DNA from: Pratylenchus scribneri
Taxonomy: Eukaryota > Nematoda > Chromadorea > Rhabditida > Pratylenchidae
DNA length: 64,000 nucleotides
Assembly (NCBI GenBank): GCA_030063045.1
Contig: JAQSEB010000020.1
Location: 1,426,001 to 1,490,000, forward strand
Reading direction: 5' to 3'
The translations under genes were made by a program, and so were the position numbers. Shown here piece after piece: positions 35,399-45,988 of this stretch. Position 1 is the first letter of the stretch. Each line of letters opens with the position of its first letter. The notes beneath the pieces were generated by a model that had not been told where the DNA came from, did not search any database, and saw only the letters and a list, made by a program, of their open reading frames with translations.

Positions 35399-37587
<2,189 letters not shown>

Positions 37588-40500
37588 ATGTCGGACGACC
37601 TTATTTCTTTAAAGAAAGAGGAGGCAGATCCTAATAACAGAGATGAGACAGAGCCAAAAAGTCCAAATGATAATAATCATCATGGGAATGCAGGTTTCAA
37701 ACATAATTTTAGATAAATTTGTAAAAAAAAATATTAGAAGCCATTTCATCTGACGATATCCAACGATTGGAGAAAGAAAAGACAGAAAGTCAATCACCTT
37801 GTGAAAATCTCAAAATTATAAGTGAAGAGAATATGGACGAGATGGATCATGATGCTGTGCAATCATCCGAACTTGCATTAGAATCATCTGCAGTTGAGTC
37901 ATCATCAGATACAAAAGATATGCTTAAAGGATGGGAAACTCCACCACAGGTTATTTTTCCATGATATTTTATAATATTCTTATTAATAAAAGGATGCAAT
38001 GAATGGTGTTGTACAACCCAGAGTGATTGCACCTGTTGGGAAGCCAACTCGATGGACAAATCAATTGGATTTTCTTATGAAGGATGTGCTCAAACATGCC
38101 AAAACACACAAGCATTCATGGCCATTTTTAAAACCAGTTGATGCTATTAAACTTAACATTCCGGTTTGTTTATTCAAATATTAATGTATTGACATTAATA
38201 AAATTCAGGATTATCATAAAGTTATCAAACGGCCAATGGATTTGGGCACAATTGAAAAGAGATTGAAGAATATGTATTACTATTCGGCGAAGGAGTGCAT
38301 GAAGGTGAGCAATCAAAAAAACTATATTCCAAATATGGGTATATTTTGCCACAACTCGTTCAAAATAACCTAGAAAAGATATTTTCGGATTAGTTTTAAA
38401 ATCTCTTTTCAAAAATTGGTGGGGAGGTTTCTCGAAATGTTCCTATTTTTTGTAGGACATCATGGCAATCTTCAACAATTGCTACATTTACAATCCACCA
38501 GAATACGGGGTTTATAAAATGGCAAAAGAGCTTGAACAAAATATTCTTTTGAGAATCAGCAAAATTCCACCTAACGTAAGTTCATTTTGCAGGATTTTGA
38601 AAACATATGGTCAAACTGTTACAAATTCAATCAATGTGAAGATGATGTCACTCTCATGTGCAAGAATGTAGAAAATTTATACTGGGACCGTATGAAAAAT
38701 TTTCCACAAGAGGTGGTAAATGGACTTTTTTTTGTTACACTTTCACTACTATTCTTTTCGGGCATGGAAAAATTTATAGAAAAAATTTTTATTTATCATT
38801 TATTAATATTAATAATTTTCCAGGAAGTTGAAATACCTTTTCCCAGCCAAAAGAAAGGAGGCAAAAATGTTGGCGGTGCGGCGGGCAAAAAGACTATTCG
38901 AGCTACTTCAACAACGACAACAACTAAAGGTACTAGCGTAGTAGCTAATAGTCCTTCTAATGTGTGTGAATCGGCTGCAGCCATTTTAGGCTATTTCCAC
39001 AATGCAACTGTACAAGGTGCTCCCGCTAGATTTTATTTTTTTAATTCTCTTTCCTATAAAAACTTGGTACATTTTTATATTAAAAATAAGCGGCGGGCAC
39101 AAATAGATTTTTTTGTTTTTAATTTAATTAAAAAATTAAATAAATAATAATTAATTTAAGCAAGCCGTGAATCTTCCGCACAACGCGGTCTTCCGGACAG
39201 TTCTTCCTCATCAATTGGCGTTGTCAAATTGGAAAGTGATTCAACGGATGACCATAAATTGGTTTGTCTGATATTACTTTATGATTATGATGAATAAATC
39301 ATTATTTTAGAAAGGTGTCAAACGAAAAGCCGATACGACCACTTCATTTGATGAGGACCAAGGACCGTCGACGAAACAAGCACCGAAAAGGGAGAATCGA
39401 TTAATCAAAAAAGGACCACCTCCAATCGATTATAGTCAGCTGAAACCTCGATTAAAAGGCAAATTGAATGATCAAATGAAATTCTGTACAAAATTGATCA
39501 ACGAGCTTATCACATCCAAAAAGTGCCAAACTTTCACTTGGCCTTTCCTCGAGCCTGTTGATGTTGAGAACCTGAATCTTTACGATTATTACGATATAAT
39601 CAAGGAGCCGATGGATCTTGGCACAATCAAAAGGAAAATGGAGGCCAGGCAATATGCAAATCCGGAAGAAATTCGAACGGACATATTACTCATGTGCAAT
39701 AATAGTTTCCTTTACAATCCGGCGGATCAAGTGGTTCATAAAATGGGCAAACAACTTCAGGTTTTATTTTAAATTTATTTTATTTTAATCACTTTTTGAA
39801 GGATTATTTCAACAATCGTTGGAAACAATTGCCACCGAAAACCGCAGAGGCCGAGTCACCACCGAATGTAATCTCACCAATTTTGCCTGTTGAGAAGGAG
39901 GAAAAGAAGAAGGAGTCAACTTCAAAGCGTACAAACTTTGCATCTGCCGGTGCCGTTGGAACTTCCACATCGTCGAAATCATTGGATGACGATGACCAAA
40001 TTGATTTATTGCTTATCAATGTGAATGAGAAGCTTTCGGAATTGCAACAATATAGTCAAGAATTGATTTCACTCAGGTTTTACAATGCATTTTTTAAATT
40101 AAAAATGAACATCAATTTATAGGTTAAAAAGAAAAGAGGCACAAAGACTTCAAAAAACGCCACCAATTCTGAGTGGCGAACTTCATTCTGCAATCAAACG
40201 GGCCCTGGAAAATGCCAACTTGCCTGCAAATGCTCCCACTCTTGGTCAACTTCAAAATCCAGCAGCCAGTGGACTTTTACCCTCACTTTTGCCAAATATT
40301 ATGAACAATGCCGCCGCTTTACAACAAATATTACATCAAAATATGTCTTTGATGGTTCCTCAACAGCAGAATGTGCCGCCACAAACGGTTAATGCAAGAA
40401 AGAAGACAGGACCTGGGCGTCCAAAGGGATCTTCATCAATGCAAGCAACAAGTAAAAATCATTTAAAAAGTACCAAAAAATGGATGTTTTTTCAGCTCTT

Positions 40501-42852
40501 CCTCATCAACAATCGGTCGATGGTAGCCTCAGTGCACCGACACTTATTTCTCCCACAATAACAAGCCCTGAACTTGGAGACAATTTGCAAATGGCAGCCG
40601 AAAACAGTCAGCCTCCTCTTTCAAATGCCCAACATCCACAATTGCAACCAGTCTCGAGTGGTGGAAAACGAGGGAGGAAGCCTGGCTCAAAGAACAAACC
40701 AAAGAGTGAAAATACTTCAAAAGATTCGTCCAAATGGGAATATGAATTCAATTCGGAAGATGAGCATTCCTTGGAACCAATGTCCTATGAAGAAAAGGCT
40801 CAATTATCGCAGGAGATTGGGCGATTGGCAGCCGACAAAATTCATACGTATAAAATTTTAAAGTAAGATTGATTATTTAAATTATACTTCATAGAATTGT
40901 TAGCATAATTGCGGCTCGCGAAAAAATGACCGACTTCAACCCGGAAGAATTGGAAATTGATTTTGAGACTTTGAAGCCAATTACTCTACGAGAACTTGAG
41001 GCTTATGTGAAAATGTGCCAAAGTCAGGAACAAGGGCAGACTCCACAATCCTCCAAAGTTACCAAAAAGACTAATGGTAACAAAATACAAAAATTATTAG
41101 ATTATTATTTTATATTGATATTTAGGTGCAAAATCTACTACTAATGTGAAAAAGAAGGAAATGAATCAAATGACTTCACAACAAAGTATGAATGGCGGTG
41201 CATCGACTAGTGGAAAATGTATTAATAATGAATTAATTAAATTAACTTTTAATGATTTTTAGTAACAAATGGTGGAGTGCAAGTTGCGAGTCCAACTTTG
41301 GCTAAGCCACCCCTGGTTTCGACCGTTAATCGCCCTGCTCCGCTGGATATGTCAAAAGAAGAATCGTCATCGGATTCTTCAAGTGGTTCATCCTCGTCTG
41401 AATCAGATAGCAGTGACTCATCTGATTCTGAATCAGGTTAGAAACGAGAACAATGGAAAATTTTAGGGATGACCAAAATTAGGTTGTCTTCTCTCATCAT
41501 AATTATTTCTCATTTTCATAATTCAAAATTAATGTCCTCCCGATCTCTTATCCCAAAATTTTTTTGGTTTTTTTTTAATTAACCTTGGGACCACCAATCT
41601 TTATCTATTTTTTTTATTTTCTGATCTCCTCCAATGTCAAAAATGATCAAAACCCTGAACGAAAATTGTACCCATTTTATAAAAATCCAACTTGCCAAGA
41701 CACCATTTTACACTATAGCAATCTTCTTTAACTGCCATTAAAATTGTATTTTTTGCATTTTCACAATTCACACATTTTTTACGTGATAATAAAGTGCTTT
41801 ATAAATTTTGTTTATTTTTTTTTTAAATATTTAATTTTCCTCGTTTAGAGGAGAAGCCGACCCCACGGAAGCCAGAACAGGCGATTCATGTTGATTCTAA
41901 TAAGGTTTTTAAATGAATTGAGGATGTGTTTTAAGAAGTGTTATAATTGAAGGTTTATCCACCACAACAATCTCGCAATATTGAACAACCACCCATTAAT
42001 AATATGATGCCTTTTTCGTCGATGCCAAATGCTGTCAAAACTCAAGAACAAATTCAATCCTCCTCTCAAAAAGGTCTTAAATACATATTTTCTTATATGA
42101 AATGATTTAAATTGTTTGAGATGGTAACAATGAACCTATCAAACCGGCTAGCACAAATGTGACTTCAAATGTTCAAACGCCAACCACTTCCATTGTACAT
42201 AGTGGAGCGGCACCTCTGCTTCAGTCAAATAATGCAATGGAAATGAATGTGGGTATTGCTGGTACGGTTCTTGATGCGCTGCTTCCACCGGCTGCAAATG
42301 ATGACAATAAAGGAAATGCAGCAACGGGCATTATGAACAAAACTTCCTGGAGTTCATTAACACAAAAAGTTGGTGAGACTGGACAGTTGAGTTCAGCAAA
42401 TGCGGCAACGGCTTTTGAGCAATTTCGAAAAACCGCCAGAGAAAAGGAAGAACGGGTATTTTATTCATGTTTTGTTACTATTTAAAAATAATATTTTTTA
42501 GAAACGAGTGCTAAAAGAAGACGAGGATCGAAGGCGTCGTCAGCGTGAATTGGAACAGCAACAATTGCAACAAGCTGGAACTTCTTCTGACTCAACACAA
42601 CATAGTAGTGCTCAACCATTGAAAGCAAAACAGCAGGTGGATCAAGAAGAAATTAAGAGACTTCGTGAAATGGAAAAGGTTTGCCATTATATTGAGTTAA
42701 AAGCTGATAAATATAAAAATTATAGGAACGACGTAAACGGGAAGATAAAGATCATGTGGATATGGCTAGCCAGATGGTATTTTTATTATTAAACTTTATT
42801 AATTAAACCGAATTTTTAGGAATTGATGGCAGATTTTGAGATGAGATTCTAA
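37588..42852 (+). CDS. BET bromodomain protein (BRD2/3/4, BET-1 type) with two alternative BD1 exons
   Basis: BET proteins read acetylated histones and control transcription. The protein opens with an acidic region from ATG 37588, then bromodomain 1 ([56 protein letters not shown]). The end of BD1 is coded by either of two adjacent 120-nt exons, 38456-38575 and 38593-38712 (see findings). A basic linker ([14 protein letters not shown]), bromodomain 2 ([71 protein letters not shown]), an AT-hook-like [16 protein letters not shown] pair and the NET domain ([43 protein letters not shown]) follow. Then come an acidic Ser run ([17 protein letters not shown]), an SNVQTPTTS region and a C-terminal basic helix ending [10 protein letters not shown] at TAA 42852. 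About 17 exons. Confidence 0.94.
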
Positions 42853-43432: not shown

Positions 43433-45782
43433 ATGGAAATAGTTGATTCCGAAACAAGTATGACGAAAACCCAAGCTGTTATTGATGCTGATCCAACAAA
43501 GATTATGAGCGATTTATTCTGGCTTGCTGAACAATCACAACAAAGGTGCATGTTCGAATGCTCACAATGGTTAGCATTTTGGACATTTAATTCATCCTAA
43601 ATTATAATTTTAGGGCCAGTGAACAACTCAACAATTTGCCAACCAACTATTATAGTGCGGTCGATCCAGTGAAAGTTCAAGAAAATCCAACCCAACAAAT
43701 GCCAATAAAGAAACGGGTACAAATTATGTTTATTCGTTCTTTGATAATCAACAAGGATTATAGCAGAGCTAAGGTTTTCAACCAAATTTAATTGGTTTAA
43801 TGTTTTTAATTTACAGTTTTATCTGTCAAAAGAAAAATTGGAAACAAGTTTGGAGGCATTTCTTTTCTATTTCAACTGGTATATGATCTCAATTCGAAAT
43901 CGGATGGAGAATGATGCGGATGAATTGGATCGGAAAGAAGAATATATTGATGTGGAATTATCGAGATTAAGTATGGATATTGAAGCATTGAAGAAATCTT
44001 CACCCAAATTATTCGATTGTTTCCTCAATTATTTGTAAGTTATTTAATCAAATTTCAGTGAATTTATCTATAATTTCTAGGCTTGGATTAATCAGACACA
44101 AAAGGGATGCCCCTGAAGCTGCAATTCAGGCTCTAAATGAAGCGGTTTAATTTGCAAGTTTAAATTTAATAATTCGAATTCGGTTAAGATTCAACAAGAT
44201 AATAGATGTTGGCCAGCCTGGCAATTACTTTCCACACTTTCTGAGGGATTTCACCTGGAAAAAGATCAAATTAATCATACATGGTTCTACAATCTTTTTG
44301 TGGCCGAGCGAATGTTTCATCTTCAACTTTTTGTTTGCGCCATTGATGCATACACCGCCGTTTCCAAATATATTGGCGCCTCTCCATACATTCTTGCTCA
44401 AATTGCCGCCGCTCAATCCGAGTTGCAAGAACACGACAGTGCCATAATGTCATTCCAAAAAATTCGCAAAATTGATCCATATCGAATTGAACAAGTAAAT
44501 TTATTTTGTTATTCATTGATTATAATTCTTTAGATGCATTTTTACTCCGATTCCCTATATATACGGCAAAATTTGGTTGAAATCTCTTCATTGGCAAAAT
44601 GGTTTTATGAAACGCACAAATTCCATTGGGAAACTTGCTGCATTGTTGGTTCGTTATTCCCCATTTAGTACAAATTAAAATTAATATTTTTAGCAAATGA
44701 TTATAGTGCCAAAAATGTTCATGAACAATCACAAGAATTCCTCAAAAGAGCCATACGATTGTGCCCATCCAATGCATCAATTTGGGTCCTATTGGGACAT
44801 GAATATTTGGAAACAAAAAATCATCAAGCGGCGGAGATTTCATACAAAAAAGCAATTTGTAAATTTTTCTTGAGAAAAATTCCAAAATAAAACTATTTTT
44901 TAGCAATCGACTACAAATGTTATAGAGCCTGGTATGGACTTGGTCAGTTGAATGAAATCCTCAAGAAGGATGAAAATGCCTTGTTTTACTATCAAAAGGC
45001 GCATAAATGTCGACCGGACGATTCGCGGATGTTAATTGCCTTGGGAGTAATATTTACGCGGATGGATCGAAAATCGGATGCAGAAAAATGCTTCAAAAAG
45101 GCATTCCAAATTGGCGATGTCGAAGGGAATGCATTAACACATTTGGCAAAACTTTATGAGGATCAAGAAGACAACCGAAATGCGGCGAAGGCATATGATG
45201 CTTATTTAACACTTTACACTGAGGAATTGGTTGGTAAATTGTTTATTTTATATTTAAATATTAAATAAATAGGTTGGTGATTTGAATTTGATCGCGACCG
45301 CATGCAGATTTCTGGCTCGATACAATTTGGAACAAGGAAATTTAGATATTGCATACAATCATGCTCAGGTTTCAAAAATGATTAAAAAATAAATATATTA
45401 AATTTTTAGCGATGCCTAAACTATGATATATCCAAAGAGGAAGGCTATCGGATATTGAGTCTGATAAAAAGCAAAAGGAAAGAGGACCAAGAGAAAATGG
45501 TAAGACAAATGGAAACGACCCCTTCGAATCATGGGCAACAACGAACAACTGTATCGTATCGAACGCCAATTGATGCACCACGGCCCATTGGAGGGGGAGA
45601 TGAGTAAGTGGTGTTATATTTGGGTAATAATTTTGGTGGCAAATTTCAGTACAATGCAAACACCAATCCAACAAACTGGGCAAAAGGATGAGAATGATGA
45701 CAAAAATGTCGGTGCCAATGACGAGGATGAAGATATGAATATGAATTCGGACGATGAATTAGACATTTCAGACGATTTATGA
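43433..45782 (+). CDS. CDC23: Anaphase-promoting complex subunit 8 (CDC23)
   Basis: APC8 is a TPR scaffold of the ubiquitin ligase that triggers anaphase; its C. elegans orthologue is mat-3. Start ATG 43433 begins MEIVDSETSMTKTQAV, and the family N-terminal block reads FECSQWASEQLNNLP across an intron. TPR units follow, for example WFYNLFVAERMFHLQLFVCA, SPYILAQIAAAQSELQEHDS, MSFQKIRKIDPYRIEQM, CCIVANDYSAKNVHEQS, FLKRAIRLCPSNASIWVLLG, KKAISIDYKCYRAWYGLGQL and KKAFQIGDVEGNALTHLAKL. The C-terminal tail is acidic (DEDEDMNMNSDDELDISDDL) and stops at 45782. About eleven exons, in usual order and length. RME-6 starts 206 bp downstream. Confidence 0.95.
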
Positions 45783-45988
45783 AGGCAAATGGTCAATGGT
45801 GTTTTTATGTTTTTAAATTATTTTTTATTAATTTGAGTTTATGTATAAAATGAATTAAATTTTAATTAAATCTCATCGTGTTTTATGACATAATCATTGT
45901 TGTCATATATTTTAATTTATAAATTGTCAAAATATTATCAAATAATTTATTCGTCATATAAAGATGACGTGATGAATTATTATGTAAA

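Follow-up and report, generated by a model that had tools for sequence, protein, structure and literature searches.

Tandem 120-nt exons as probable alternative second halves of bromodomain 1 in a nematode BET gene

The window analyzed here, a stretch of 64,000 nt from the genome of Pratylenchus scribneri, contains on its forward strand a gene for a BET protein that possesses two adjacent exons for the second half of its first bromodomain (BD1). Our gene model was drawn by eye, with proteins of related worms as its sole check, and consists of 20 coding exons per isoform and 1208 codons. Pfam identifies two bromodomain stretches followed by the BET/NET domain (PF17035, residues 779-841) in the model built with the first exon of the pair, exon A, and the version built with the second, exon B, is also recognized as a bromodomain, which is the domain order of the BET family. 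Among the matches listed, the nearest proteins are those of Meloidogyne and Globodera, which, together with the three gene copies described below, suggests a polyploid worm of the root-knot group or its near kin. Upstream, a gene for a TIP49 (RuvB-like) helicase on the reverse strand (about 35600-37090; Pfam PF06068 on one piece) forms a head-to-head pair with the BET gene. The next gene downstream (43434-45783, forward strand) encodes a TPR protein, presumably CDC23/APC8-like.

The first four exons of the BET gene (37588-37693, 37738-37949, 37993-38163 and 38209-38304) are all on the forward strand, as is the rest of the gene. The first half of bromodomain 1, including the WPF shelf, comes from exons 3 and 4, the latter ending in phase 0 at 38304 in front of GTGAGC. 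An intron of 151 nt (38305-38455), exceeding most of the gene's introns in length, separates exon 4 from the exon pair, which in turn is followed by an intron of 111 nt (38713-38823). The common part of the transcript resumes with exons 38824-39016 and 39161-39261, the former beginning in phase 0 with EVEIP and able to take up either member of the pair. Bromodomain 2 is encoded in a single version by exons 39311-39760 and 39802-40076, and the remaining exons (40123-42852) include the BET/NET domain and run to the stop codon at 42850-42852.

Exon A (38456-38575, sequence DIMAIFNNCYIYNPPEYGVYKMAKELEQNILLRISKIPPN) and exon B (38593-38712, sequence DFENIWSNCYKFNQCEDDVTLMCKNVENLYWDRMKNFPQE) are each 120 nt long and in phase 0, exactly as the original prediction for this locus had placed them. 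Their translations are identical at 13 of 40 residues, the number previously counted by hand. In 100,000 shuffles of B, neither these 13 identities (shuffle maximum 10) nor the BLOSUM62 score of 51 between the two segments (best shuffle 25) was ever attained. The 17 bp between the exons (38576-38592, GTAAGTTCATTTTGCAG) contain the donor of A and the acceptor of B, as anticipated, and nothing more. The donor of A, GTAAGT, is the sole donor of such form in the gene model, most others being weaker. Exon B is followed by GTGGTA or, 3 nt further on, by GTAAAT; use of the later donor (GTG|GTAAAT) adds one valine and leaves the phase unchanged. The predicted phase-0 boundaries of the neighbors, GTGAGC upstream and 38824 downstream, hold in the gene model, and A or B each fits in frame between them, both builds giving an open frame of 1208 codons. 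Reading through the gap shifts the frame into the TAG at 38669-38671 that had been predicted, and a transcript that retained the 17 nt would consequently meet a stop at 38669. The locus thus presents adjacent homologous exons of equal length and phase for one and the same protein segment, the configuration expected of a mutually exclusive pair.

We consider it highly probable that this single BET gene uses its tandem 120-nt exons as alternative second halves of bromodomain 1, that the 17-bp gap is what likely forces the choice of one or the other, and that two readers with different acetyl-lysine pockets would result. Since GTAAGT and TTTTGCAG share the same 17 nt, factors assembling at the donor of A and at the acceptor of B would be unable to act together, and the gap would leave no room for a branch point. 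On these grounds exon 4 would be spliced to A, with A in turn spliced to exon 6 at 38824, or else to B. PMC6071210 states that an overly short intron prevents the exons on either side from being joined to each other; with a gap that holds only these two splice sites, we take such spatial exclusion to be the cause. Exclusive pairs held apart in this way, the mechanism described in PMC6071210, resemble ours in consisting of homologous exons equal in length and phase, with a gap that here too is probably too small for splicing; they differ in that the segment here belongs to the ligand pocket of a histone-acetylation reader and that exclusive use here is predicted from sequence.

Either exon completes a Pfam bromodomain (E 8.1e-21 with A, 2.7e-20 with B), and bromodomain 1 with either of them aligns to BRD4 BD1 over the whole domain without a gap. 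The WPF shelf and the conserved asparagine, which characterize the acetyl-lysine site of BET proteins, both align with their BRD4 counterparts, the asparagine lying within NCYIYN in A and NCYKFN in B, in agreement with the NCYxxN motif noted earlier in both exons. This asparagine, at position 13 of the segment, is present in 35 of 36 distinct A segments and in all 26 distinct B segments from the wider comparison described below. It is followed by EDDV in 26/26 distinct B segments; the DD, which we take to correspond to D144/D145 of BRD4, is found there in 0/36 distinct A segments. Asn25 of B is likewise invariant (26/26). Because the DD pair is kept in B and replaced in A, BD1-A and BD1-B are predicted to prefer different acetylated partners or BET inhibitors, and we infer a different choice of ligand by the two pockets. 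Structure models were one of the checks proposed for the two types: AlphaFold models of an A-type protein of Haemonchus placei and a B-type protein of H. contortus, taken as stand-ins for the window, do not differ in their helices, and both agree with BRD BD1 structures.

The exon pair occurs three times in the assembly (227 Mb, 276 contigs): once in the window, which lies on contig C20, and once each on C114 and C66, always with a 17-bp gap separating A and B. The gap is identical at 17 of 17 positions across all three copies found, and A and B retain open frames and splice signals in every copy. Between the window and the most distant copy, on C66, exon A is identical at 116 of 120 positions (three synonymous and one nonsynonymous change) and exon B at 114 of 120 (two synonymous and four nonsynonymous); outside the two exons, about 25 % of the gene's synonymous sites differ between copies. 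Measured against that divergence, these counts, from a small comparison, show exon A to be under clear constraint, and exon B to be open but not clearly constrained. At codons 4 and 31 of exon B (38602 and 38683) the window copy and the C114 copy, the closest two of the three, have Asn and Trp in common; the C66 copy and the Meloidogyne B segments have Gln and Arg. Together with the nonsynonymous excess, these two substitutions hint weakly that constraint on B is relaxed or that B is changing.

To place the pair among other nematodes, we drew on protein searches with BD1-B and an alignment of nematode BET proteins (29 rows, the best 120 of 998 and the best 120 of 874). Rows were picked by hand and comprise those with nematode names, P0001, P0027, P0065 and the C. 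elegans translation; all rows from other worms are proteins, either gene models or sequences. Segments were assigned to A or B by their score against two consensus strings that we wrote ourselves, and stretches of bromodomain 2 were removed by a score cut. The resulting set of 68 chromadorean sequences excludes the window itself, the single-segment proteins P0058, P0059, P0065 and P0069, which are outside Chromadorea or unplaced, and P0004, P0021 and P0029 together with P0008, P0009, P0011, P0012, P0013, P0019, P0023 and P0025, eleven worm-like fragments that end before the segment. The last eight are worm gene models or contig ORFs that end at or just past the donor of the exon preceding A, and these halts look as if the exon pair had broken the gene model.

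Among the matches listed, 22 of the 68 sequences carry A only, 23 B only, 17 both, four both in part and two neither, and in 17/17 sequences with both the order is A then B. Both types are present in Tylenchina, Rhabditina and Spirurina, three suborders of Rhabditida, and in 21 of the 41 named genera among the matches listed. For Bursaphelenchus, Haemonchus and Pristionchus the A and the B segment come from different species, as do full A and full B in Steinernema and Mesorhabditis. Meloidogyne incognita has one predicted protein of each type (P0062 with A, P0034 with B). Plectus, of the order Plectida, has a B segment. The models of Globodera P0030 and Mesorhabditis belari P0163 leave A in mid-exon and go on with B. 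The comparison of related nematode BET proteins, which had been proposed as a check, thus finds both segments recurring across suborders. Decay of one exon in relatives, named beforehand as evidence against a switch, fits Caenorhabditis, where all three species seen (C. elegans, P0184 and P0201) have the B-type segment alone, and fits only there; elsewhere both segments are kept across suborders. From these three species, A appears to be dispensable in Caenorhabditis.

The same proteins bear on the idea that A and B are spliced in series, giving a bromodomain 1 with a 40-residue repeat of its second half. Both exons are in phase 0, and among the matches listed 17 of 68 sequences from other worms, most of them Spirurina, join A to B in frame, 14 directly and three across eight extra residues. 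One of these three, P0027, which groups with cyst nematodes, has VSVFHHLQ between A and B, which fits an unspliced gap of 24 nt starting with GTAAGT and ending with CAG; in Wuchereria P0167 and Brugia pahangi P0169 the eight residues have a start that is not donor-like. Serial use in P. scribneri would however need a 17-nt intron in a gene whose 17 introns besides the two flanking the pair measure 41-412 nt (median 46), none near 17, and the fold modelled for either version would probably not accommodate a duplicate of the last two helices. Moreover, exactly one segment is found in 45/68 sequences among the matches listed, and Brugia, Wuchereria and Nippostrongylus have single-segment and joined models within the same genus. 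We therefore regard serial splicing as very improbable and read the joined models as prediction artefacts, given that each exon alone completes the fold and that single-exon models exist in the same genera. If the joined models follow RNA, both exons would be usable together in those worms.

We also examined the descent of the two segments. A tree over 40 columns was computed from 92 rows, reduced to 69 after removal of identical ones, with rows lacking more than two residues omitted. The A segments (36 rows) and the B segments (26 rows) each make up one side of a branch with support 100/99, a division found in 100 % of 200 bootstrap trees, and each group spans several suborders. This separation points to retention of both versions since early chromadorean evolution. 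Trichinella (a member of Enoplea), Trichuris and P0065 have one segment each, and all three adjoin A. The likeliest history would be a single exon duplication no later than the base of Chromadorea, in which A represents the older type, adjoining the single Trichinella and Trichuris segment, and B arose from the duplication. In this 40-column tree the branch leading to B is long, and the A side has arthropod rows at its base, for which reason the duplication may instead predate Chromadorea, with loss in Trichinella and Trichuris.

The conservation of both groups makes it hard to regard one exon as the one in use and the other as a relic of exon duplication, a reading to which we give very little weight. 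In its favor, Caenorhabditis has the B type only, and the substitutions in exon B of the window are absent from the Meloidogyne B segments. Against it, neither exon has lost its open frame or its splice signals in any of the three copies, and two separate groups persist across suborders, with EDDV and Asn25 unchanged in every distinct B segment. Mutually exclusive splicing of A and B, as the original prediction had it, is accordingly the reading that we retain from sequence: length, phase, short gap, three gene copies and the presence of both segments in three suborders all speak for it.

That competing RNA secondary structures of the docking and selector kind, as in Dscam, enforce the exclusion in place of the short gap is most unlikely. 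The two flanking introns are longer than most in the gene and contain short blocks identical in the three copies, and a consensus fold pairs UUUUGCCAC of the upstream intron with the donor of B. In that fold of three close copies, however, covariation is close to nil, both partners having changed in 2 of 128 pairs, and shuffled sequences attain the pairing energy in 71 of 300 cases for the B donor and in 65 of 300 for the gap region. Duplex energies between the upstream intron and the splice sites were thus without significance against 300 shuffles, and neither they nor the consensus fold gave anything significant for competing structure as a cause. Nor are the flanking introns specially conserved, with an identity between copies of 0.79-0.80 as compared to 0.64-0.93 for the other introns.

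Among chromatin readers and drug targets, the BET proteins belong to the most intensively studied, and their isoforms usually differ in the tails. The gene described here shares with BRD2, BRD3, BRD4, BRDT, fs(1)h and C. elegans BET-1 the two bromodomains and the BET/NET domain, and its BD1 aligns with that of BRD4; unlike in these proteins, half of BD1 is encoded in two versions. If exclusive use of A and B is true, the worm could change which acetylated histones or factors are read without a second gene. A BET inhibitor could then act on one splice form while leaving the other unaffected, and many gene models of parasitic and free-living nematodes would miss, truncate or fuse one of the forms. 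We see an even chance that the wider proposition holds, namely a chromadorean splice switch in which the exon pair is as old as the group, two BD1 readers with different pockets are deployed by tissue or stage, splicing thereby takes the role that BRD2, BRD3, BRD4 and BRDT have in vertebrates, and Caenorhabditis has lost the older A. The loss of A would then be the reason why the model worm never showed the switch.

The published C. elegans isoforms are of one type in this segment. The coding sequence of bet-1A printed in PMC9835578 translates to a B-type segment, DIETVFQNCYTFNGKEDDVTIMAQNV, and bet-1B and bet-1C have the same B-type stretch; in the parts compared, the three printed sequences diverge only close to the C terminus and not in the BD1 segment. 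Overexpressed bet-1 isoforms affect life span differently, according to that paper. The Kassiopeia set of C. elegans exclusive exons, as presented in the main text of PMC3923563, likewise rests on prediction by exon length, frame and similarity, and the word 'bromodomain' is absent from that text; our case differs from it in that the C. elegans BET-1 sequences seen carry one segment. Neither the device of exclusive exons nor the BET family is new in itself. What appears new is a switch within the BD1 pocket that is kept across chromadorean nematodes, since the open-licence literature that we searched yielded no description of a splice switch inside the BET BD1 reader pocket. Database isoforms, for example Brugia Bm4523 and Bm10119, or a report elsewhere may already contain it.

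Several minor observations concern the gene, its neighborhood and the assembly. At 412 nt (41437-41848), the longest BET intron is 87 % identical between the window and the C66 copy, above most other introns. The whole assembly contains 45 bromodomain stretches, including tandem pairs on contigs C10, C41 and C1. In the gene models of Heterodera (P0048) and M. javanica (P0159), BET and TPR domains are combined in a single protein, and Globodera P0030 has a tail similar to the beginning of the downstream TPR gene; because of these fused models and this tail, the BET-TPR neighborhood looks conserved across relatives.
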